Below are positions 2,755 through 26,182 of a stretch of 64,000 bases of DNA, in pieces; position 1 is the stretch's first letter, and the number at the start of each line of letters is the position of its first letter. The translations under genes and the position numbers were made by a program. Origin of the DNA: Chitinophaga sancti (GTDB lineage Bacteria; Bacteroidota; Bacteroidia; Chitinophagales; Chitinophagaceae); NCBI RefSeq assembly GCF_034087045.1, contig NZ_CP139247.1, positions 2,382,001 through 2,446,000 on the forward strand, in the 5' to 3' direction. The notes below the pieces were generated by a model that searched no databases, was not told the DNA's origin, and saw nothing but the letters and a program-made list of their open reading frames with translations.

Positions 2755-3341
2755 GTATGACGAGTGTTTGTCTATTAATAACAATCTTTTTCCATCAAAA
2801 TATAACTATACTGAAAGATTCAGTATGTCTGGACTGGGAAAACGCAACGATAAATGATGTAAAATGTCAATTAGAACAAAACCATTTACTTTCAGGAAAT
2901 GCTTATAAGGAATTATTAGCAGTTTTAGGAGATTCAGAAATAGAGCGATCCAGAATAGAATTGAGATGTGATCTCCTGAATAAAATAAAGGAATCTAATC
3001 CTTTATTTTTTAACAAATATTTTATCATTGAGACTAATACAAAAACAGATCCTACCAGAAGTCTTGCTTTGGTTGTAGATGTAAGTGATAGTAGCCATTT
3101 AGTATTGTATACTTACCAACGATTATCATACGACTGGAAACTAACCGAAGTTTTAAAGGACATGAAACTGCGATTAAACAATGATATATATTCGAAAAAT
3201 AAACGAGGCGTCAATATGGGCTACTTAATTGTCTCGCAATTTGAAAAAGAGAAGGTTAAACAGTCTAAATATCTCACTGGATTATCATTAAACGCAGACT
3301 CATGGGTAGCGGAAGTTTTAGATAGAAATGAGACTTTATAA
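2751..3341 (+). CDS. Putative RHS-associated immunity protein (paralogue of the 9-593 protein)
   Basis: A 196-residue protein that shares its layout with the 9-593 protein: an N-terminal VCLDWENATINDVKCQLEQ helix, a central ALVVDVSDSSHLVLYTYQ strand pair, and a C-terminal QSKYLTGLSL...EVLDRN segment. The first 20 residues are fairly hydrophobic (SVCLLITIFFHQNITIL), but a signal peptide is not convincing. The ATG at 2751 overlaps the preceding stop by four bases, indicating translational coupling. Two divergent copies about 2.7 kb apart suggest successive acquisition of related toxin/immunity cassettes. The function is unproven. Confidence 0.6.
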   Translation: MSMTSVCLLITIFFHQNITILKDSVCLDWENATINDVKCQLEQNHLLSGNAYKELLAVLGDSEIERSRIELRCDLLNKIKESNPLFFNKYFIIETNTKTDPTRSLALVVDVSDSSHLVLYTYQRLSYDWKLTEVLKDMKLRLNNDIYSKNKRGVNMGYLIVSQFEKEKVKQSKYLTGLSLNADSWVAEVLDRNETL

Positions 3342-3500
3342 AACATTGACATGTAAAATGCGAGAATAATAGAAAACGGTCTCCCTATAATTACGCATTT
3401 GTGATTGTGAAAAAACATGAATATGTTGAAAGAGGTAAAACTTCATTTGACAGGGTTACTTCACTGATTGTTTAAAGCGTGGATTGATTGAAGTATATTG

Positions 3501-3530
3501 GCTGCAGGCAAACGCCTGCGGCTTTTCATT
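3501..3530 (+). terminator. Rho-independent terminator
   Basis: GCAGGC at 3504-3509 pairs with GCCTGC at 3514-3519 around an AAAC loop. The stem extends outward with a GC pair and a wobble, then TTTTCATTTCTT. It probably ends transcription of the 2751-3341 gene. Confidence 0.7.
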
Positions 3531-3555
3531 TCTTGATTTAATCTGATTATTTTGC

Positions 3556-11205: not shown

Positions 11206-12234
11206 ATGTTCGAGTTACATCGCGTTGTCATTCATGAGGTCAAAAAAATAGCACATGAAACCTTAACGACCCTTGACCTGTCGGCTACCATAGCTATCCA
11301 GGACCTTGAGATCTTCAAAAGCTTGGTGGAAAGCATTAACACCGTGTACAGTGTATCCTCCTCCCTGAAGAATACCCATTTCGCTCGGGATGCGGATACG
11401 GTATTCAGCACTCATTTAAAGCGTTATCTGGAGGAAGGTACTGACCAGAGCTTCTATACATTTTCTGTTGAGTCGATGCAGGCGTTAAAGGTGCTCATTG
11501 AGGAAGTGCTTTTAGCAACCGGTGGTTTTTACTGCTTTGCAGATTATACCGACCACGGCAGGCGTTGTGTTGCCGTGATCCTGCTACGGCATAAAAACGG
11601 ATTTAATTTTGTAAAGGTTGCCAATACGTTTACAGCTTCCGGGACAGAGTCGCTCAACTTTGATAAGATCGCCACAGGCTTCCGCTTGAATGTAGGAATC
11701 TATAAAGATGATACCGATGCGCGTAACAGTATTGCGTTGATCACCTCTCAACAAGATCAATTGTCTTCCTATTTTAAACGCTGGGTGTCCGTAGCTGAAA
11801 TTATTACCAATACAATAAACACTCGTGAACTGGTTAAACTTGTAAAGGAGTTGCCCATGCCGGTAGATGAGCAGGGGCGGGATCAGTTCCCGACTGTGGA
11901 TGCGTTTCGCAAAGCCTGTTACAATTTTGTTGAGCAGAGTCCCAATAAACGGGTAAGTTTGATGGATATGGGAGCCCATTTTTACGGTGAGGAACGCCGG
12001 CGAACATTGTTTGATGTAGCTGATCAGCATCGTATTGTTATCGACAATGAATTCAAGCGGGATAAGTCTGTATGGCAAAAAGTGATCAGTATAAAGGCCT
12101 CTATCCCTGGTGTACATTTAACTATCGATCTTGATAAAATAAACGGAGAATTGGTAAGGATACAAAACGATCAGATTGTGATTCGATCACCTGAGCTTGT
12201 TCAACAAATAACAACACAGCAAAATGGAGAGTAA
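11206..12234 (+). CDS. Nucleoid-associated protein, NdpA/YejK (37-kDa) family
   Basis: 342 residues, the family's usual length. Family features visible are the N-terminal HRVVIHEVKKI strand, an LLATGGFYCFADYTDHGRRCVAVILLRHKNG core, LNFDKIATGFRLNVGIY, and the late SVWQKVISIKASIPGVHLTIDLD strand. E. coli YejK binds the nucleoid. In islands such proteins often accompany uncharacterised partner genes. Here the stop (12234) overlaps the start of the downstream membrane-protein gene (12224) by 11 bases, so the two are translationally coupled and probably act together. The role in this island, possibly sensing in a defence pair, is inference. Confidence 0.8.
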   Translation: MFELHRVVIHEVKKIAHETLTTLDLSATIAIQDLEIFKSLVESINTVYSVSSSLKNTHFARDADTVFSTHLKRYLEEGTDQSFYTFSVESMQALKVLIEEVLLATGGFYCFADYTDHGRRCVAVILLRHKNGFNFVKVANTFTASGTESLNFDKIATGFRLNVGIYKDDTDARNSIALITSQQDQLSSYFKRWVSVAEIITNTINTRELVKLVKELPMPVDEQGRDQFPTVDAFRKACYNFVEQSPNKRVSLMDMGAHFYGEERRRTLFDVADQHRIVIDNEFKRDKSVWQKVISIKASIPGVHLTIDLDKINGELVRIQNDQIVIRSPELVQQITTQQNGE

Positions 12235-12547
12235 AACTGAGGAATTTTTAAAAATTCTCGGCGATAAAATAAAGCATCCACATGATTGGAACTCTAAAAT
12301 CTTAAGCGTTACCAATTTCGATAATGATACTTATAATCGTTTGAGTAACCTCCTGCAGGAATTACGGATTCAGGAAGATGGAGATAAGGATGAAATATTC
12401 TTTAACCTGAACAAGGATGCAGGACCAAGCAATTTGGTATTTTATGACCAGGTGCATTTTCAGTCAGAAAACAGTTATGTGCGCTATAAGGATTGCTGGC
12501 AGGAAGTTAATATTATTTTACTGATGCCCGGTGGCGAGATGGTCATC
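12224..12547 (+). pseudogene. N-terminal part of the membrane-protein gene split by the tandem IS110
   Basis: The first 108 codons (MESKTEEFLKILGDKIKH ... VNIILLMPGGEMVI) of a gene that overlaps the NdpA-like gene by 11 bases. After ATC at 12545-12547 the reading frame enters IS110 sequence and runs into a false C-terminus. The gene resumes at 15472. The N-terminal domain is soluble and acidic, with no known motif. Host sequence rejoined across the IS units reads ...CATC then AATGAAAAGAGG. Confidence 0.75.
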
Positions 12548-12618
12548 AAAGAAAACCCTCATGAACCGAATTCACAAACGACTATGAAAATGGTGGTACC
12601 TTCGACAAAAGTACTACC

Positions 12619-13848
12619 ATGGAACAATCACATATCAGTTTTGAACAGGTTGTGAGTCGTGGCTGTGGCCTCGATGTTCACCAGGAGAATGTAGTAGCTA
12701 CCATCAGGGGTGATAATTTGCAGGAACAAACCCGCACTTTTAGCACCTTCACAAGTTCACTTAAGGACCTGGTAGCCTGGTTGGAAGAATCGGGCATTAC
12801 ACATGTCGCAATGGAGAGCACGGGTGTTTACTGGAAGCCTGTTTTTAATATACTAGAACCTCACTTTGAACTTATTTTGGTCAATGCCCGGCATATTAAA
12901 TATGTGCCGGGTCATAAGACTGATCGTAATGACAGTGCCTGGATTGCAAAATTATTGCTAAGCGGGCTACTAAAAGGAAGTTTTATTCCACCCCAATACA
13001 CTCGTGAATTACGGGAATTGTACCGATACAAACGTAAAGTAATAGGCCAACGCTCCAGTGAATATAACCGATTACAGAACATTTTAGAGACTGCCAATAT
13101 CAAATTGAGCAGCGTTGTCAGTGATGTGTTCGGCATAAGCGGCTGGTCAATGATCTCTGCTATTATTGATGGAGAACAGGATCCCATGATATTGGCCAAT
13201 CTGGCCAAAGGTAGGCTCAAAATCAAGAAGCAAGAACTTATTCTTGCTTTAGAAGGTAATCTTAATGAGCATCACCGTTTTATGCTCAACCTGTCTAAAG
13301 CTGCTATCTTACAGCTAAATGAACTGCTTTGTCAGGTAGATAACCGTATTGATCAGTACTTAAGAAAATGGGAAGAAGAAGTAAAATTACTTCAGACTAT
13401 TCCCGGAGTACAAAAACAAACAGCTACAGCCATCTTAGCCGAAATAGGTACAGATATGCATGCCTTCCCAAATCAGCATCATTTAGCCAGTTGGTGTGGC
13501 TTATGTCCGGGTAATAATGAAAGTGCCGGAAAAAAGAAAAGTGAACGTATCAATCATGGCAACAGTTCTCTTAAAACAGCACTGGTGGAGGCGGCCTGGG
13601 CCGCTGTACATACAAAGGAATCTTATCTGAAAAGAAGATATTACTCTTTAAGTGTGCGAAGAGGTAAAAAACGTGCTCTTATCGCCATTGCACACAAAAT
13701 CCTCATTGCCACTTATTTTATACTCAAAAATAGAGTGCCATATATGGAACCGGATAATCAGGAGTGGCTTAAAAAAAGAAAGCAGGCGCAGATAAATAAT
13801 TATCTCAGGCGCCTGCGCGAGCTTGAGGCATTACCCCCATCTCAATAA
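12619..13848 (+). CDS. IS110-family transposase (DEDD), intact
   Basis: 409 residues. The N-terminal RuvC-like DEDD domain shows Asp19 (CGLDVHQENV), Glu66 (AMESTGVYW), and Asp102 and Asp105 (KTDRNDSAW). A coiled-coil middle follows. The C-terminal Transposase_20 domain has the helix-hairpin-helix-like IPGVQKQTATAILAEIG and the GNSSLKTALVEAAW segment with the candidate catalytic Ser. All expected residues are present. The start MEQSHISFEQ at 12619 is the first in-frame ATG inside the element. Confidence 0.9.
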   Translation: MEQSHISFEQVVSRGCGLDVHQENVVATIRGDNLQEQTRTFSTFTSSLKDLVAWLEESGITHVAMESTGVYWKPVFNILEPHFELILVNARHIKYVPGHKTDRNDSAWIAKLLLSGLLKGSFIPPQYTRELRELYRYKRKVIGQRSSEYNRLQNILETANIKLSSVVSDVFGISGWSMISAIIDGEQDPMILANLAKGRLKIKKQELILALEGNLNEHHRFMLNLSKAAILQLNELLCQVDNRIDQYLRKWEEEVKLLQTIPGVQKQTATAILAEIGTDMHAFPNQHHLASWCGLCPGNNESAGKKKSERINHGNSSLKTALVEAAWAAVHTKESYLKRRYYSLSVRRGKKRALIAIAHKILIATYFILKNRVPYMEPDNQEWLKKRKQAQINNYLRRLRELEALPPSQ

Positions 13849-14010
13849 GATTACTAAGTTACAAAAATCGACCTCTTATTGGTGCTTTTTAAGCCTGTAA
13901 AGAAAACTGATTTAAGACTCTAAGTACAAACGATTGTTGCTATAAGCACGAAATGAAAATTTTAAGCATATAGAGTCATATCAAAATTATGACACAGACT
14001 AACTATTTTC
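13849..14010 (-). ncRNA. Candidate IS110 bridge RNA region (copy A 3' end)
   Basis: 162 non-coding bases between the transposase stop and the element end, kept unchanged in copy B (15310-15471). IS110 elements encode a bridge RNA in one non-coding end. Here the 3' end is the only one long enough. On the minus strand a -33/-7 promoter crosses the copy A/copy B junction and would transcribe into this segment. Small hairpins can be drawn (for example TGCT/AGCA). Strand and RNA limits are inferred. Confidence 0.35.
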
Positions 14011-14013
14011 AAA
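13982..14013 (-). promoter_or_regulatory. Promoter formed at the IS110 copy A/copy B junction
   Basis: On the minus strand TTTG (14013-14010), 20 bases, then TAATTTTG (13989-13982): a full match to the Bacteroidota -33/-7 consensus. The -33 box comes mostly from the start of copy B and the -7 box from the end of copy A, so it exists only where element ends abut, as in a tandem or circular form. At the outer right end the -33 box reads ATTG instead. Confidence 0.45.
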
Positions 14014-15471
14014 GAAAACCCTCATGAACCGAATTCACAAACGACTATGAAAATGGTGGTACCTTCGACAAAAGTACTACCATGGAACAATCACATATCA
14101 GTTTTGAACAGGTTGTGAGTCGTGGCTGTGGCCTCGATGTTCACCAGGAGAATGTAGTAGCTACCATCAGGGGTGATAATTTGCAGGAACAAACCCGCAC
14201 TTTTAGCACCTTCACAAGTTCACTTAAGGACCTGGTAGCCTGGTTGGAAGAATCGGGCATTACACATGTCGCAATGGAGAGCACGGGTGTTTACTGGAAG
14301 CCTGTTTTTAATATACTAGAACCTCACTTTGAACTTATTTTGGTCAATGCCCGGCATATTAAATATGTGCCGGGTCATAAGACTGATCGTAATGACAGTG
14401 CCTGGATTGCAAAATTATTGCTAAGCGGGCTACTAAAAGGAAGTTTTATTCCACCCCAATACACTCGTGAATTACGGGAATTGTACCGATACAAACGTAA
14501 AGTAATAGGCCAACGCTCCAGTGAATATAACCGATTACAGAACATTTTAGAGACTGCCAATATCAAATTGAGCAGCGTTGTCAGTGATGTGTTCGGCATA
14601 AGCGGCTGGTCAATGATCTCTGCTATTATTGATGGAGAACAGGATCCCATGATATTGGCCAATCTGGCCAAAGGTAGGCTCAAAATCAAGAAGCAAGAAC
14701 TTATTCTTGCTTTAGAAGGTAATCTTAATGAGCATCACCGTTTTATGCTCAACCTGTCTAAAGCTGCTATCTTACAGCTAAATGAACTGCTTTGTCAGGT
14801 AGATAACCGTATTGATCAGTACTTAAGAAAATGGGAAGAAGAAGTAAAATTACTTCAGACTATTCCCGGAGTACAAAAACAAACAGCTACAGCCATCTTA
14901 GCCGAAATAGGTACAGATATGCATGCCTTCCCAAATCAGCATCATTTAGCCAGTTGGTGTGGCTTATGTCCGGGTAATAATGAAAGTGCCGGAAAAAAAA
15001 AGTGAACGTATCAATCATGGCAACAGTTCTCTTAAAACAGCACTGGTGGAGGCGGCCTGGGCCGCTGTACATACAAAGGAATCTTATCTGAAAAGAAGAT
15101 ATTACTCTTTAAGTGTGCGAAGAGGTAAAAAACGTGCTCTTATCGCCATTGCACACAAAATCCTCATTGCCACTTATTTTATACTCAAAAATAGAGTGCC
15201 ATATATGGAACCGGATAATCAGGAGTGGCTTAAAAAAAGAAAGCAGGCGCAGATAAATAATTATCTCAGGCGCCTGCGCGAGCTTGAGGCATTACCCCCA
15301 TCTCAATAAGATTACTAAGTTACAAAAATCGACCTCTTATTGGTGCTTTTTAAGCCTGTAAAGAAAACTGATTTAAGACTCTAAGTACAAACGATTGTTG
15401 CTATAAGCACGAAATGAAAATTTTAAGCATATAGAGTCATATCAAAATTATGACACAGACTAACTATTTTC
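14011..15471 (+). mobile_element. IS110-family element, copy B (1461 bp)
   Basis: Head-to-tail duplicate of copy A, which it appears to match except for a change in the A-run of the transposase gene that shortens it by two bases. It ends ...CTATTTTC at 15471, where host sequence AATGAAAAGAGG resumes. The near identity means the duplication is recent. Confidence 0.85.
14082..15309 (+). pseudogene. IS110-family transposase, frameshifted copy B
   Basis: Same protein as copy A up to about residue 305 (...NNESAGKKK). Copy A has six A, G, four A, G after CCGG at 13528-13541; copy B has nine A and G (14993-15002), two bases fewer. This causes a stop at 15003-15005. The remaining 100 codons (SERINHGNSSLKTALVEAAW...) continue in another frame to 15309. 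The RuvC-like domain is intact, but the Transposase_20 domain with its Ser is cut off, so copy B is probably dependent on copy A. Confidence 0.85.
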
Positions 15472-16514
15472 AATGAAAAGAGGAGCAGCCTGCCGCCCGG
15501 AATTTACCGATCTTTAATTATATATACTACCGGAAGATTCTGGCTTTTCTATTAAGCAAACCTGAATTTACGTCCTTGCATTATGTGATGGACCATCAGT
15601 TTGCTATTCTCTCTGCCGAAAAAGGGCCTTACCATATCGGATACTCACTTTCCGAGGCCCGGGTAGCAACTGTCGGTAGTCTGATTTTGGAATATGAGGA
15701 ACTCGTCAAAGGGTTTGATAAAATAGAGTTTGCTGCTTTTTTCAAAGATGTGGTCATTGAAGGAACGCATTCTGCAGTGGTTAGTGACCGGTTTTGGAAA
15801 CTTGTATCTGGACTGGCAGCACTGATTTCTCTAGCTAACCGGGACTTACAAATCTATCTGCAGAAATTTGCGTTTGAAAAGATCAAATCCAAATTTAAGG
15901 AAGAGAAGGTAAAGTATTTTGAAAGCCTAGAAAAAAACATCGAATCACTCAATAAACAAGTACTGGCTTTTCCGCTCACATTTGCAGCATCTGTATTTGC
16001 AGGCTTTCAGGTAAAAGATAGTGCATGGATTCTATTTGTAATATTAATATCCTACGGCTTGTATACATATGTGGCATGGAAGATTCTGGGCATTATTAAA
16101 TACAATATTGATACAACAGACCAGGATGTAACGGCTGAGTCTAACCGGATCAGGACAACTTATCAGGTAGTCTACAGCGAATTTGAAGGTGACTTTAATA
16201 AGATTAAGGGAAAAATTTTGTTGATTAAGAAATTGCGAACATTACTCAGTGGTGTTTTAATTGGACTGCTTGTTTTATTTTTACTTTTTACCATCGGTTA
16301 TAGTGTTAAACTCGAAACAGTAGCTCGGGAGGCTGCAGCAGCTGCACTAAAGGCGAAAGAGGATTCTCTGCAACACTCCCACAATAAAGTAATTGATACT
16401 TTTCAGGTAAGGATTATTCCATCACCAAATAAACCAGTGACTGCCGTTATAGATACGACTGCAAATATAAAAGCGGATGCAGCTCACGCTGCAAGCAAAA
16501 GCAAAAAGCGCTGA
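15472..16514 (+). pseudogene. C-terminal part of the membrane-protein gene split by IS110
   Basis: Continuation of the gene started at 12224. The open frame (EEQPAARNLPIFNYIYYRKILAF... then HYVMDHQFAIL from TTG 15576) reaches back almost to the IS edge, but is one base out of frame with the N-terminal part. One extra A in the AAAA run at 15476-15479 would restore one gene of about 455 codons. Features are a coiled-coil segment (FEKIKSKFKEEKVKYFESLEKNIESLNKQ), two adjacent TM helices (LAFPLTFAASVFAGF and WILFVILISYGLYTYVAW), a further TM (LLSGVLIGLLVLFLLFTIGY), and an Ala/Lys-rich tail. A membrane effector is plausible; no family recognised. Confidence 0.65.
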
Positions 16515-16933
16515 CTGGCCGGTTGGGACACATCCAATGCAAATGCTTTTTGATAAATAATTTCCTGCGACCAGTAAACACCGTCTTTGGGGTACTCTGT
16601 GAAGTGGTATCGGTTACGCATTTAAGTCTATATTCGCAAGTAAACAAATTAGAGTCCGGAAATACTCGATTGTTTCATTAGGTCTTTTAAATAAATTTTT
16701 ATCTGCTGCGAGGATAATATGAATGCCTTTATTATTTTTTGGCCAATTTGGTTATGTTTGACTAGTCCAGCATCAAACTAAATCGTGCAGATGGACTGTG
16801 TGTAAGAAAGATTAGACCAACCCCAAGCTAATGGTATTAGGGGCATTATGTGAAGCTTTTGTACACAAAAAAATTATTTTCCAAGGTTACAATATTATTA
16901 CTATGTCGCAGGACTACACTAAATTACTTTGTA
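16515..16933 (+). promoter_or_regulatory. Intergenic region with a -7 element
   Basis: 419 bases before the HExxH gene. It contains TATGTTTG (16753-16760), a match to the TAnnTTTG -7 element, but no clear -33 box 19-21 bases upstream. A GTG-initiated extension of the downstream frame (from 16850) is unlikely. Nothing else supportable. Confidence 0.3.
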
Positions 16934-18682
16934 ATGTATTTTAATTTTACCGAAGGTTCTTACAATCTTTCTCTGTTTAGTATTTACGTTGATACAGATC
17001 ACTCATTTGCTGAACTAAAAGATTTACCGCCTGAAGTACTGGCTGCGTTTTACCATGAATATTTTCATTTTCTTCAGGATGTTACTTCTCCCTTTACTGT
17101 TAATGTCATGTGGCAGCTTTACGGTAGTACTGTTCAATTGATCCAATATGCCCAGACGCATGGAAGTGTTATCCGGCTTCCATTGGGGGAGGTGGCTGAG
17201 CTAAAGTACTTGGAACGGCAGAAGAGGTTTATCGACCTGATTTTCGGCGGTCAGTACTGCGGGTTCGACAATGAACCGGCAGCTGTTCCTTACGAGGTGG
17301 TTCAGGTGAAAATTGAAGCAAGAACCGATTTCTCGGATATCTCGGAGAGCGAAAATGTGAAGTTTGTAGAACTGGAAATAGCGGATGCAAATGGACAAAA
17401 ATCTGAATATGGTTTTGGCGCCTTGGCAGTCATTGAAACGATGACTTATCTTATTCAAAAAAAGTTTTTTGGCGAGAGTGCTGTACCGGAGGTGCCTTAT
17501 ATAATCGCTGTAAGGGTTGCAGCATTAATTTGTCCAGGTATAGGTAGTAATGAAGAGTATGTGTTTTCTGTTTGTGACCTCGCATTAAAAACACCGTATC
17601 CTGGCTGGATGTTTGTTTTTTTGTTGACAGAGCTGGGTAAGGCTATGCCGGATCCGAAGTCAGCTTCGGCTATCTATGAATTCTGTCTGCCCATTCTAGA
17701 AGAAATGTGGAGATGTCAGGAAAGTTTCGCTCATTATAAGAAAAAAGTACTGCATTGTTTGGGGCAGCTACAGGGCCATGCTGCTTTTATAGATAACCTG
17801 AACTGGATAACAACCTTAATTGAACAGGGGTACAACAGGCAGACAAATGAGCCAATGATGATGCTGAAGCTTTATCAGCAGGAGAAACCTTTTAATGAAT
17901 ATCTGCTTGGATTCAGAGATGATCTGGGCATGCCGGAAATAATAAACAATCTGCGAAATCGGTGGTTTCATGTACCGGCTTCATTACAGAATACAGCCGG
18001 GGGCATTGATCCTACAATTTTAGGCGCTGCAATACAGCTACACGCAACACTGCTGGAGGCGGATACATGTTGCGCTCTGCAGCCCCAGTGTGCTAAATCT
18101 CATCGGAAGATGCCTTTAGATACTGATTGTTCAACCGCCCCTTGGAAAAAGGCCCATCTCGATCCATCCTGTGCATTTGGTGCCATCTGGGCATCTTTTG
18201 GTCTTCATAATTTTACCATTGAACAGGACGAATGGATTTTAGAGGAGATGGAAATAGTTACCAATAATGAAACTGTCAATAAGCTCTGGATCAGAGGTTA
18301 TCCCAATAACCAATGGGTTGATGCTCCTTTTGGAAACTATAAAGTTAGAGTTGACCCCGCAGGACCGGCAGGGCAGATACATATCCATATCTCCCATCCG
18401 CAGCACAGGCAATCCAAAAAAGAGCAGGTTTCCTGGAACATTGACGGAACCCGGCATGATGCGGGCTCCTTTAATGAGAATTTTGTTGGAATGAAGCAAG
18501 CTCGCAGGATCGCTAGAGAAGTATTGAGAATTCCAGATAATGTGGTATTACAGTATAAGACTCGCTTGGCCTACACGCAGACTTTGTTGAAAGAAGGTGA
18601 TTTTCCACTGGATATAATCTCCTGCAAAATTACTCCTCTGACCAAAGAAGTAAGACCTGAAGATGTGGAAGCGGGACTCTGA
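16934..18682 (+). CDS. Putative zinc metalloprotease-like protein (HEYFH)
   Basis: 582 residues from ATG 16934 (MYFNFTEGSYNL); the frame is open from GTG 16850, but the added residues look like non-coding sequence. Near the N-terminus (about residues 40-60) is AAFYHEYFHFLQDVTSP, an HExxH zinc-binding and catalytic motif in a helix. Large proteins with an HEYxHxLQ motif occur in bacterial accessory islands and are uncharacterised. A cysteine-rich middle (TCCALQPQCAKSH ... TDCS ... DPSCAFG) could bind metal. The C-terminal 150 residues are beta-rich. No signal peptide, so cytoplasmic. It lies downstream of the NdpA/membrane module on the same strand and may be a protease effector. The function is inferred from the motif only. 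Confidence 0.65.
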   Translation: MYFNFTEGSYNLSLFSIYVDTDHSFAELKDLPPEVLAAFYHEYFHFLQDVTSPFTVNVMWQLYGSTVQLIQYAQTHGSVIRLPLGEVAELKYLERQKRFIDLIFGGQYCGFDNEPAAVPYEVVQVKIEARTDFSDISESENVKFVELEIADANGQKSEYGFGALAVIETMTYLIQKKFFGESAVPEVPYIIAVRVAALICPGIGSNEEYVFSVCDLALKTPYPGWMFVFLLTELGKAMPDPKSASAIYEFCLPILEEMWRCQESFAHYKKKVLHCLGQLQGHAAFIDNLNWITTLIEQGYNRQTNEPMMMLKLYQQEKPFNEYLLGFRDDLGMPEIINNLRNRWFHVPASLQNTAGGIDPTILGAAIQLHATLLEADTCCALQPQCAKSHRKMPLDTDCSTAPWKKAHLDPSCAFGAIWASFGLHNFTIEQDEWILEEMEIVTNNETVNKLWIRGYPNNQWVDAPFGNYKVRVDPAGPAGQIHIHISHPQHRQSKKEQVSWNIDGTRHDAGSFNENFVGMKQARRIAREVLRIPDNVVLQYKTRLAYTQTLLKEGDFPLDIISCKITPLTKEVRPEDVEAGL

Positions 18683-22007: not shown

Positions 22008-22900
22008 CTAGCAAATACCTAATTGTTCAAAATTAATGCTCCGGGTCCCTTCAATCACATCAGCAAGGCTTACCTCAAAGTATTCACTTGTAGTTTCCTG
22101 CTTTTGATGCCCCAACATACGGGATAGTACAGGAATATTAGCACCATAACGGATATAAAGCTGACTGTTAGTTTGGCGAGCTAGCTTATTTCGCACATTC
22201 CGCCGCCATTGTAACAGGCTGGCTATTTCTTTGAGTTGTCGGTTGTATACTTGGTCCTCAGTGAAGACATCTCGATCCAGTAAATATGGGTCGCTGGGAT
22301 GAAGGCTATAATATTTCTTAATAAGTTCTATTGCATAAGGGAATTTCCAGAGGGGAACAATTGCAAGGTTTCCGTTTTTAAACCGTCCTCGGTATATAAA
22401 GTAACCGTATTCCTGATCCTTATGTAATTCGGATTTCTGAAGGGCTTTAAGATCACTGTAATAAAATCCGGTGTAAACCTGCAACAGGAAAATATCCTGA
22501 ACCTTAACCAGTTCCTGCTTGTCGTTATCAAATTTATATTCCTTCCATGCTCTTATTTCATTCACATCCAAGTGATCTTTGATAGTCTTACCCCTGGAAA
22601 TATGAATATTTGAAAAGATAGCATCCTCCTGTAAAGGACTTATATATCCATCCAACTGTGCCCAATGAATTACTTTCCTATAAGCATTAAAATAACCAAA
22701 GATCGTAGATGCTTTAAGGCTCATTTCTCTTTTCATAAACTTACAAAGCTCCAAAAACAATTTTTCATCTAAGTCATAAAAAAATAACTCATGCCGGAAC
22801 TTATTTAGAGCAATAAGCGCAGATTTATAGCGACCAATGGTAGCTGGTTGAAGCGCTTCTGGAGGATCGATGACGATTTGGTGGAAATAGGTGTTTAAAA
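22008..22900 (-). pseudogene. Tyrosine recombinase (integrase), C-terminal part split by IS66
   Basis: About 297 codons of host-derived frame, starting in the TSD and reading TYFHQIVIDPPEALQPATIGRYKSAL: a SAM-like core-binding domain, then the catalytic domain. The usual first Arg position reads TGFYYSDLKAL (Tyr for Arg) and the HxxR box reads KLARQT (Lys for His, Arg kept). LGHQ and the nucleophile Tyr (EYFEVS) are present. Such variants occur among Bacteroidota integrases, but activity is uncertain. Eleven upstream codons (MGIPLFKLLGG) come from IS66. It joins the 25430-25825 part across the TSD as CSSILNTYFHQIV. Confidence 0.85.
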
Positions 22901-22953
22901 GTGTACCTCCGAGTAGCTTAAATAAGGGTATTCCCATTATTGCTAACTTTGCC

Positions 22954-24497
22954 TTAAGCGGTAGTGTTGCTTTCTTGTTTTTCCCAGCGGTGAGGCAATA
23001 AAGATTTAAGTTTTGAGGTAGTCAGCTCATTGATGTTGTGACTTAACATATCCTTCAACCATTCATAGGGATTAACATTATTCAGTTTGCAGCTAACCAG
23101 TAACGAGTATAAAAGGCCTGCTCTTTTGGCTGCTTCGTGAGAGCCGCAGAACAAGTAATTTTTGCGTCCGACAGCCAGATTTTTCATACAGCGTTCAATC
23201 GGATTGTTGTCTATATGAAGATGCCCGGTAGTAGCATAGAGACTTAGTCCTTCCCAACGTTTGATACTATAAGCCATAGCTTGGGCAATTGGACTTTTGG
23301 GGCGAAGCTTTACATATTCCTGCTTCATCCATTCACCCAAAGACTTCAATATGGGCAAAGACTTCTCCGCGCGCCGTATTTTGATCTGCTCCTCATCAAG
23401 TCGTTGTTCTTTACATTCCTCTTCCACCTTGTATAATTTGGCTATTTCAGTCAGCACATGTTCAGCCCGCGCCTTATCATTTTCTTTACTATCGTAAAAT
23501 TTACGGCGCGCATGAGACATGCAAAAGAATATAATCATTCCTTTGATGTTCAGCTTGTCATAGACTTCATAGCCGTCCACCTGCAGGTGTCCTTTAAAGT
23601 GTTGCAATATATTTTCGGCTGCGGGTTTATCCCTTCCGCGGTGATAGTCAAAGTAGATTAAACGTCCATCTCCGGTCAGGTATGTCCAATAGTAGCCCTG
23701 GTGTGTGTCTTTTTTCACCTGGCTGTCCAGTACCGCTATGCCGGTTTCATCTCCGTGCCAATACTGCTGCTGATACATTTCATGTAATTGAAGATGGCCT
23801 AATGGCGTTACAACGTTCGCTACCTGGCGTACCCAATCAGTAATAGTAGAATATGCAATGCTGATGTTACTTCGTTTGAAGCTGTCCAGTTGGCGATTCA
23901 GGGGCTTATGATCAATAAACTTATCGATGATGATCTGTGCCAGCAACTCAGGTGTTGCTATGCTTTTTGGCAATGCCTGTGCCGGTTGTCTGGCTGCTAC
24001 TATACGGTGCTGGCCAGGTTGGCCGGGAATCGGGCATTTATAACAGGGACGAACTGTACGTTTGATAAATATCTCGCCCGGTTTCCAGCCGAGTTGCTCT
24101 TTAATGTCCTCTCCGTCCTTCTCACAATGGCTTACATCTTCATCCGGTTCGATGATCTGTTCTTCTACGCGTAAATGTTCCGGGAAAGGGTTTTGTAAGC
24201 CGTTTTCCCGGGGGCTTGTCTGGCCTTGACGTAGCTTATTTTTTGAACATCAGACAGGTTAGTAGTAGCAAAAGCTGTTTCAAAATTCAGTCCCAACTCT
24301 TGCTGTACTTGTGCCCCGGAAGGGATGAAACGCTCAGACTTAAAACCACCTAATAACTTCGTGAGTTGGTGCAACTGGTATTGTAGCTGGGTTACCTGGT
24401 TTTGTAATTGAAGGTTGCTTTCCTGTTGAGATTTTAAAAGCGGCAGCAGTTGCTCATAGAGCACTTTGTAATCTATATTTTCCGTTGCTGCTGACAT
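22954..24497 (-). pseudogene. IS66-family transposase (TnpC type), frameshifted
   Basis: The start (MSAATENIDYKVLYEQLLPLL) and a leucine-rich coiled coil are in frame to a stop at 24165. The frame then shifts by one base near 24175-24215 and continues NPFPEHLRVEEQI, a zinc-binding segment (RPCYKCPIPGQPGQ) and the DDE_Tnp_IS66 core: WHGDETGIAV, QVDGYEVYDKL, HARRKFYD, and a C-terminal HIDNNPIERCMKNLAVGRKNYLFCGS with the catalytic Glu. Restoring one base gives a full-length protein of about 515 residues. Either natural decay or a sequencing error in the homopolymers there. Confidence 0.85.
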
Positions 24498-24647
24498 GGT
24501 GCAAAGATAATACAGTACTGTATTTTAGCATATAGCCTACAACCGAAAGTTATACAGTCTAAAGTGAATAAACCCACCCTGAAAAATGATTTTAAAAAAG
24601 GGCACCGAAAAATGTTAATAACCCGACATGTTTTTCTTAAAATAAAA

Positions 24648-24680
24648 AAACGTTGCCATTTTTTATAGATGGCAACGTCA
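24648..24680 (-). terminator. Hairpin between tnpB and the IS66 transposase gene
   Basis: ACGTTGCCAT (24650-24659) pairs with ATGGCAACGT (24669-24678). On the minus strand it is followed by a seven-T run, so it looks like a terminator or attenuator after tnpB. Confidence 0.55.
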
Positions 24681-24708
24681 AATATATTCACACAATGATC
24701 CTGATGGA

Positions 24709-25062
24709 TCACATCGTACCAATGTATCGCTTGCGCAGAAACGCTTTCTTCAAAGAGATACCCTGTAAGATCATACTTAACTGTTTAGCTGTAATGCTAC
24801 TGTGAGTGCCTTCCATAATACCTGTCGGTAACTCAAAGGTGCCTTCCTCTAATCGCTTATAGTATAAGCTAAAACCATCCCCTTCCCATTCTAATGCCTT
24901 CAGGTGCGTTTGCCGCTTGTTCAAAAAAATAAACACATCCCCCGTCTGAATTTCCATCCCCAGTTCGTTGGTAACAAGCCCGCTCAAGCCGTCAAAACTC
25001 TTGCGAACATCTGCCCATTTGTGATACAACCAGTAATGGGTGCCGTTGTTAATCTGTAACAT
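24709..25062 (-). CDS. tnpB: IS66 accessory protein TnpB
   Basis: 117 residues, the family's usual length. The diagnostic pattern is present: YWLYHKWADVRKSFDGLSGLV, GDVFIFLNKRQTHLKALEWEGDGFSLYYKRLEEGTF. TnpB of IS66 elements is needed for transposition together with TnpA and TnpC, by an unclear mechanism. The frame is intact. It starts 30 bp downstream of tnpA. Confidence 0.9.
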   Translation of the reverse strand: MLQINNGTHYWLYHKWADVRKSFDGLSGLVTNELGMEIQTGDVFIFLNKRQTHLKALEWEGDGFSLYYKRLEEGTFELPTGIMEGTHSSITAKQLSMILQGISLKKAFLRKRYIGTM

Positions 25063-25091
25063 AAATTAACTGATTAAGGCTTTTAAAAAAC

Positions 25092-25382
25092 TTACAGATG
25101 GCTCCCGGTAAAACGGATTCCACGGTATTCCGCAAAGAGATCCTGGGCGGTGGACTCTTCCTGGGGCTCTGTTACTTTAAGCAATGTGAAACTACTTTGG
25201 TGCTCTATCGGCTTATCTCGCAACTGGGCGTGATACTTCTTTTGCCAGTAGTGATATGTTCCTGGCGAAAGATCATACAGCTCACAAAAATCTTTCACCG
25301 TCATCGAACTGCCTTCATGTTCGCCTATCAGTGCAAACATCTTTTGCTCCTTCGATAACCCATTTGATTGTTTCTGTTCCAT
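25092..25382 (-). CDS. tnpA: IS66 accessory protein TnpA (HTH)
   Basis: 96 residues with a helix-turn-helix segment (SSMTVKDFCELYDLSPGTYHYWQKKYHA), the IS66 TnpA/OrfA pattern. First gene of the element, 74 bp inside its right end. The frame is intact. Confidence 0.8.
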   Translation of the reverse strand: MEQKQSNGLSKEQKMFALIGEHEGSSMTVKDFCELYDLSPGTYHYWQKKYHAQLRDKPIEHQSSFTLLKVTEPQEESTAQDLFAEYRGIRFTGSHL

Positions 25383-25429
25383 TTGTTTATTTTTTTGATA
25401 AACCCGGAAAGTAAACTTTTTTAAACAGC

Positions 25430-25825
25430 CTAATTTTTAACTACTCGGAGGTACACGTTTAAAATGGATGAACAAGCTTCCTTTTGAAGTTCCTTAAAGA
25501 TGATCGCAAAGGTCAACTGTCGTTTAGCAGTGTAGTACCTTTTATTTAGTTCACGCAATAATGTGAGTGTGTTATCAATAGCATTATTGATTTCAAAGTG
25601 GTAAGGATGACCTGGTTTAACCCAGGCATTCTCTTTCCCACTCCATTCGTCTACCGTCACTTTTTGAGGCAGCTTTACGTCGTGGTAACGACAACTTTTT
25701 CCAATACGTATCCGGATGTGAATTTTATAGCGCCCGTTTTGGTTAATATGATTTCGCCAATTATGTACGGGACGAAAATCAGGTATTTCCATAAAGGCCT
25801 CCTTTCTTGCGCTAATGCAGTACAA
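25430..25825 (-). pseudogene. Tyrosine recombinase (integrase), N-terminal part split by IS66
   Basis: From the likely start ATG 25792 (MEIPDFRPVHNW) it reads an arm-type DNA-binding domain (RYKIHIRIRIGKSCRYHDVKLPQKVTVDEWSGKENAWV) and the beginning of the core-binding domain (TAKRQLTFAIIFKELQKEACSSILN), then runs into IS66 (VYLRVVKN stop). Without the insertion the protein would be about 410 residues, normal for Bacteroidota integrases. It is placed next to tRNA-Gln, as integrase genes of tRNA-targeting elements are. Confidence 0.85.
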
Positions 25826-25883
25826 ATTTCGTCAAAAAGGATAGATTTTGATTAAGTGATTCTATTAACAGATTACCGATAAA

Positions 25884-25903
25884 GTGTAAAAAAAGGTGTA
25901 AAA
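25884..25903 (+). repeat. 20-bp direct repeat, right copy (candidate att-associated)
   Basis: Two GTGTAAAA octamers spaced 12 bases apart, 19/20 identical to 8512-8531. It lies just upstream of the integrase start and 210 bp from tRNA-Gln. Confidence 0.5.
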
Positions 25904-26057
25904 CAATACAAGGCTAATGAGATGAAAAAGGAAGGGCATCAAAAGAACAGGTTGTGAGAGGACGTTTGATAATTAAATAGATACAAAGAAGAACTGATTA
26001 TAAAGCATCGAAAAAATGAATATTCGACTTTTTGAGCGGTTAGAATCTAAAAAAAAT

Positions 26058-26088: not shown

Positions 26089-26112
26089 AAAAAAAGGTTT
26101 GTTTTTTCGAGT

Positions 26113-26182
26113 TGCCTGACCTGGATTCGAACCAAGACAAACAGAGTCAGAGTCTGTCGTACTACCGTTATACTATCAGGCA
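26113..26182 (-). tRNA. tRNA-Gln (anticodon CTG)
   Basis: The minus strand folds as a full tRNA: acceptor TGCCTGA/TCAGGCA, D-arm GTAT...GTAC, anticodon stem ACAGA/TCTGT with loop CTCTGAC (anticodon CTG, for CAG codons), and T-arm CTTGG/CCAGG with loop TTCGAAT. The CCA end is not encoded. It marks the right edge of the island. Confidence 0.93.

Follow-up and report, generated by a model that had tools for sequence, protein, structure and literature searches.

Does a gene for a nucleoid-associated protein that overlaps a gene for a membrane protein form a unit which protects bacteria against phages? This question is raised by a locus in the window, a stretch of 64,000 nucleotides of the Chitinophaga sancti genome (assembly GCF_034087045.1, contig NZ_CP139247.1, positions 2,382,001 to 2,446,000), in which a gene of the NA37 family (PF04245, the YejK/NdpA family) is followed by a split gene for a membrane partner. 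An earlier note, made from the DNA alone, had described an NdpA-like gene overlapping a membrane-protein gene by 11 bases and had regarded the two as a possible undescribed defence pair. The overlap was confirmed, and the window locus is interpreted here, with a probability of roughly 0.6, as the remnant of a two-gene phage-exclusion cassette in which a DNA-binding sensor and a membrane effector would cooperate in the manner of RexAB, with proteins of other families. The features concerned are as follows.

11206..12234, + strand: NA37/YejK-like protein of the paired subtype, 342 amino acids, intact (PF04245, phrog_3767)
12224..12545, + strand: N-terminal piece of the membrane partner, about 107 codons (69% identity across 114 residues with the N-terminal region of the intact gene from Chitinophaga tropicalis)
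15470..16514, + strand: C-terminal piece of the membrane partner, with the remaining soluble domain, stalk helix, hydrophobic segments and tail (homologues; phrog_5023)

The two genes of the window

In profile searches the protein encoded at 11206-12234 matched NA37 with an E value of 1.6e-23 and phrog_3767 with an E value of 2e-31; its whole-protein PF04245 score was 84.1 bits, compared with a curated cut-off of 24.6. The protein has the YejK fold, E. coli YejK (PDB 9be2) being matched across 301 residues. The partner gene starts at 12224, inside the NA37 gene. Its reading frame is halted after about 107 codons by two head-to-tail copies of an IS110-family element and resumes at 15470-16514; because these copies split the membrane gene, the window copy of the pair is most likely dead, judging from its sequence.

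The C-terminal piece has 62 homologous proteins in the protein database, the window's own piece counted, and is near-identical to part of an intact relative of 455 residues (P0001), which is matched by phrog_5023 with an E value of 2.7e-12. In the Chitinophaga tropicalis locus (L003) the partner gene is uninterrupted. The partner is about 400-460 amino acids long with a large soluble domain, its membrane topology being known as a model only, and its proline 276 is invariant (23/23 sequences). Neither the partner pieces nor the scanned relatives gave a Pfam or NCBIfam match above cut-off. A known housekeeping role of the second protein, which the earlier note had named as a ground for refutation, did not turn up, given the lack of such matches, the patchy distribution and the locations in defence islands and prophages described below.

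Co-occurrence and distribution

Whether the two families co-occur in other genomes was the other point on which the earlier note had let its proposal stand or fall. An NA37 gene was found directly upstream of the membrane gene at 27 of 29 membrane-protein loci, as a unit of phrog_3767 and phrog_5023 with NA37 first, and at the remaining two loci, L010 and L019, the sequence starts within the membrane gene, at the edge of a contig. Twenty-two of the 27 pairs were found via the membrane protein alone, while the five at L066, L067 and L069-L071 were reached by querying with NA37 or with the pair and so do not count as independent. Two loci, L032 and L068, stand outside the count of 29; the former is a weak membrane-family match with an internal stop. 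With mechanically called starts, the genes overlap in 24 of the 27 pairs and are separated by a gap of 3-27 nucleotides in the other three. A genome scan gave 19 further membrane-family loci, in Bacteroidota.

The distribution is patchy: among 59 genomes searched, the membrane family was present in the window's own genome only, and a search of the phylum with phrog_5023 gave matches, including more distant forms, in 6 of 395 Bacteroidota genomes, among them the window's own genome and one weak match with a stop. The Bacteroidota sets were homologous to the phage/prophage sets by hhalign, with a probability of 100 for NA37 and 99.7 (E 1.1e-25) for the membrane protein. Furthermore, the distance matrices of NA37 and its partner were correlated, with r of 0.97 for 22 pairs and 0.87 for the 12 Bacteroidota pairs and with none of 5000 permutations as high in either case, although part of this correlation is owed to common host ancestry; five of the 27 pairs (L005, L007, L009, L013 and L014) were dropped from this comparison as near-duplicate or truncated. 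The two genes form a co-inherited, widespread unit. In L006 (4928-8186), an NA37 gene, a membrane-protein gene and a second NA37 gene all overlap.

Paired and solo NA37 genes

NA37 is present in 59 of 296 Bacteroidota genomes and was mostly solo among the loci examined. An overlapping downstream gene was found at 0 of the 29 solo loci examined, which comprise the 30 best-scoring NA37 matches and two from the window's own genome, minus L034 and L056, which are paired, and L062, which lacks a centred open reading frame. In a tree of 40 rows, for which 15 of the 29 solos were used (every second solo sequence was omitted), the 15 Bacteroidota solos were split from 23 paired rows with a support of 100/100; E. 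coli YejK grouped on the paired side, in a tree with long branches and a midpoint root. At least two NA37 matches occur in 16 of 17 genomes carrying the membrane gene, and the paired copy is therefore usually an extra one. In the window genome, another NA37 gene (G000:C1:1350547, L033) lies without an overlapping downstream gene.

By hhalign, paired and Bacteroidota solo NA37 gave a probability of only 0.4 and were linked only via the phage set (94.3), though both match PF04245. At L061 (1486-3523) a solo-type NA37 gene is followed 61 nucleotides later by a gene for an unrelated protein of 320 amino acids with four hydrophobic segments, possibly another pairing.

Phage and prophage copies

Both families also occur in phages (Klebsiella phage P7641, two faecal phage contigs and an Acinetobacter phage contig), and the pair is also found in E. 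coli prophages, for example at 11981-14352 of L070 and 9987-12357 of L071. There it lies between the lysis-gene side and the antiterminator Q, on the opposite strand, or, at another site, beside the late control gene D of a P2-like prophage; in Klebsiella phage P7641 it occupies an accessory position. DNA of the E. coli form was detected in 40 of 5426 complete genomes, with at least 80% of the pair covered in 35. Not all copies are intact: the annotation of one E. coli strain marks a frameshift in the NA37 gene. When the E. coli form served as a protein query, 59 proteins were retrieved, and those with names came from Enterobacterales, for example Salmonella, Klebsiella, Serratia and Pantoea.

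Two side observations belong to these prophages. In L102 (E. coli 268.2, 2848-3545) an IS1 element breaks the membrane partner, a second insertion break of such a gene, and in one E. coli prophage region carrying the pair (L070, 4296-6195) a SLATT-domain gene overlaps a reverse transcriptase gene near an integrase.

Defence genes near the pair

The genes around the pair were compared with PADLOC models, using 106 neighbours of paired loci (20 of 126 were dropped, from near-duplicate loci, as short open reading frames or, in one case, as a 1532-residue frame) and 106 neighbours of solo NA37 genes (2 of 108 were dropped to equalise the numbers). The paired neighbours matched 395 models at E <= 1e-8 and 37 at 1e-75, counts that overstate the neighbours matched since one protein can match many models; the solo neighbours matched 12 models, the best at 2.2e-31. 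The contrast is therefore one of kind and strength and not of gene count. The solo control came from 15 genomes, 14 of which are also hosts of paired loci, the other being the window genome; an NA37 match was present at 15 of the 16 control loci (none at L088). Among the matches listed for the paired neighbours are Wadjet JetA and JetC, Gabija GajA and GajB, type I restriction-modification, type IIG and AbiEii, the Gabija matches not being assigned to individual loci.

Host island and insertion elements

The pair of the window lies in an island with the following further features.

12546..14008, + strand: IS110-family element, copy 1, interrupting the membrane gene; transposase at 12619-13848 (NF033542 IS110, E 9.5e-83)
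14009..15469, + strand: IS110-family element, copy 2, in tandem; transposase frame broken (14082-15005, 14959-15309; near-identical genome copies)
22008..22937, - strand: C-terminal piece of the tyrosine integrase of the island (PF00589, E 5.4e-8; 93% identity over 299 amino acids to the L003 integrase at 15072-16322)
22954-23973: IS66 transposase gene between the integrase pieces (IS66 match)
25430..25825, - strand: N-terminal piece of the integrase (Arm-DNA-bind_5; 96% identity over 129 amino acids to L003)
26111..26182, - strand: tRNA-Gln gene adjoining the integrase, a probable integration site from its position

Next to tRNA-Gln, the DNA at 25457-26021 shows 98% identity to the C. tropicalis island L003. 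This island also has the pair, with 80-84% identity at the DNA level, but its genes between pair and integrase are different. From its position, tRNA-Gln is the probable integration site; a repeat search at the window island found no flanking attachment repeat. The integrase (22008-25825) is split by the IS66 transposase gene, and its C. tropicalis homologue is one frame. An OLD-family nuclease match (E 1.1e-9) lies beside a weak PcrA helicase match (E 3.5e-6) in L003, two genes that may be read from these matches as a Gabija-like arrangement.

Ten near-identical copies of the IS110 element are present in the window genome, and this near-identity suggests that the element was recently active. 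It forms a tandem dimer at 12546-15469 and a tandem tetramer at G000:C1:2111021-2116869. Beside the pair, 16850-18682 encodes a protein of 610 amino acids with an HEYFH stretch near its N-terminus and a C-terminal DUF6367. The open reading frame at 1807-2511 matched no Pfam family; in L007 and L008, counterparts of 27-29% identity lie directly upstream of the pair.

Proposed function

In the preferred interpretation, the NA37 protein would bind DNA in the cytosol as a sensor, recognizing phage DNA or a disturbed nucleoid, and would signal to the membrane partner by physical interaction with the partner's soluble domain. The model of the partner places a stalk helix before a probable membrane hairpin with the invariant proline; once triggered, the partner might damage or block the membrane, or retain DNA there, and the infection would fail. 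That DNA binding leads to membrane action is something we infer, as is an abortive mechanism. Elsewhere, the pair most likely protects cells against viruses.

Several points weigh against this interpretation. The window NA37 protein and both partner pieces matched no PADLOC model at E <= 1, and when ten neighbours were examined protein by protein, three matched (JetA at L004, a WYL-type regulator at L006 and, at L020, a candidate protein, PDC-S73, that matched a TIR model in part) and the other seven gave nothing. A structure search with the partner model returned generic helical bundles only, so that pore formation is without structural support. The phage NA37 at L068, found through NA37, has no such partner. 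To these are added the multiple model matches per protein and the shared ancestry already mentioned, the regulatory role reported for NdpA2 of an integrative and conjugative element in the available part of PMC8565334 (NA37 proteins elsewhere are regulators or nucleoid proteins), and the passage of PMC13092281 on a YejK unit of E. coli, treated below, which does not state that the YejK domain itself is required.

A direct block of the Kiwa kind, in which the membrane protein would be located where phage DNA is injected and NA37 would coat this DNA as it enters, so that replication and transcription stop and the cell survives, is a possible but clearly less probable explanation. A weak resemblance of the NA37 N-domain to the KwaB fold points towards it; however, CD1/MHC chains match the NA37 fold as well as KwaB does, and at KwaB loci a small membrane open reading frame lies upstream (10/10), whereas the membrane gene of the pair is much larger and lies downstream. 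In addition, hhalign gave probabilities of 1.3 for KwaB against NA37 and 0.1-0.2 for KwaB against the membrane protein. These are weak negatives: the hhalign results against KwaB and RexA carry little weight because that method also failed to connect paired with solo NA37.

It is quite unlikely that the pair serves mobile-element maintenance or regulation without a direct anti-phage role, with NA37 shaping island or prophage DNA and the membrane protein acting as its tether. Relatives of NA37 do occur on plasmids and phages, a regulatory role is reported for NdpA2, and the pair of the window, like those of phages and prophages, is carried by a mobile element. Against this, defence genes abound beside paired loci but not beside solo NA37, the pair has the position and strand of accessory genes in E. 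coli prophages, and the integrase/tRNA end is common to C. tropicalis with the cargo between pair and integrase exchanged. Chance adjacency of a housekeeping nucleoid protein and an unrelated membrane gene might be entertained since NA37 is common in Bacteroidota, and mostly solo among the loci examined, yet it is extremely improbable. Among the loci examined the membrane family always accompanies NA37, except for the two contig edges and L032; the solo loci lack overlapping downstream genes, and nearly all host genomes (16/17) carry at least two NA37 matches. Chance adjacency was rejected, being ruled out by the co-occurrence at 27/29 loci.

Comparison with known systems

The closest published candidate is found in PMC13092281 (2026, DefensePredictor), the available text of which lists a YejK nucleoid-associated domain among 42 validated E. 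coli units with protection in plaque assays. The likeness lies in a YejK/NA37 domain within a phage-protective E. coli transcription unit, and a figure legend includes transmembrane and coiled-coil labels, which fit the partner and are not specific to it. The genes are unnamed in that text, and the form in the window is a distant one from Bacteroidota; it is plausible that this unit is the E. coli form of the pair. Literature searches, judged on titles and abstract openings, otherwise found no such pair named. The proposal of the earlier note thus holds for a possible defence pair, in view of the co-occurrence and the defence-island and prophage setting, but 'undescribed' is doubtful because PMC13092281 reports a validated YejK-domain defence unit.

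RexAB of phage lambda and the RexAB-type PP_5643-5644 of P. putida, as described in the parts of PMC11077077 and PMC12894663 at hand, likewise combine two adjacent prophage genes, one for a soluble protein that binds DNA non-specifically and one for a membrane protein. In the published view the first protein is the sensor of infection and the second the effector, RexA being proposed to open RexB (PMC12894663, same part). However, lambda RexB has 144 amino acids and four predicted helices, whereas the partner of NA37 is much bigger and includes a large soluble domain. RexA and NA37 gave an hhalign probability of at most 0.9 and no phmmer match among 51 NA37 sequences, a weak test with a single RexA sequence; a similarly weak test of one RexB sequence against profiles found no sequence relation to the membrane protein. 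Membership of RexAB was rejected, the partner not being of the small four-helix RexB type.

Kiwa (KwaA-KwaB) also joins a membrane protein to a DNA-binding partner, and both are proposed, in the available portion of PMC12904381, to bind injecting DNA at the membrane; its gene order is opposite to that of the pair and the sizes differ. At E <= 1, the Pfam search with the window NA37 did not return KwaB (PF16162). Membership was rejected, with no KwaB family match and no small upstream membrane gene. E. coli YejK/NdpA has its fold in common with the window NA37, but in K-12 no partner gene of this kind adjoins yejK.

A broader proposal, rated as rather unlikely, is that NA37, KwaB and RexA share one DNA-clamp fold by descent or convergence, repeatedly paired with unrelated membrane partners as a general phage-exclusion class. 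After YejK, the weak fold matches of the window NA37 include KwaB and chain L of the human kinetochore CCAN complex; we take this chain to be CENP-L, presumably the counterpart of IML3. For RexA, a resemblance to RdgC and to the kinetochore subunits IML3/CHL4 is reported (PMC11077077, in the part at hand). The placement of E. coli YejK on the paired side of the tree is a further hint, whereas the lack of sequence support (in weak tests), the equally high CD1/MHC scores, the long branches and the absence of a true root count against it. If such a class exists, YejK, with its housekeeping role in E. coli, would represent a domesticated member that has no partner. A conserved phage-exclusion pair family, if confirmed, would give a clear role to the poorly understood NA37/YejK fold and would add another family pair to RexAB- and Kiwa-style defence, spanning Bacteroidota and enterobacterial prophages.

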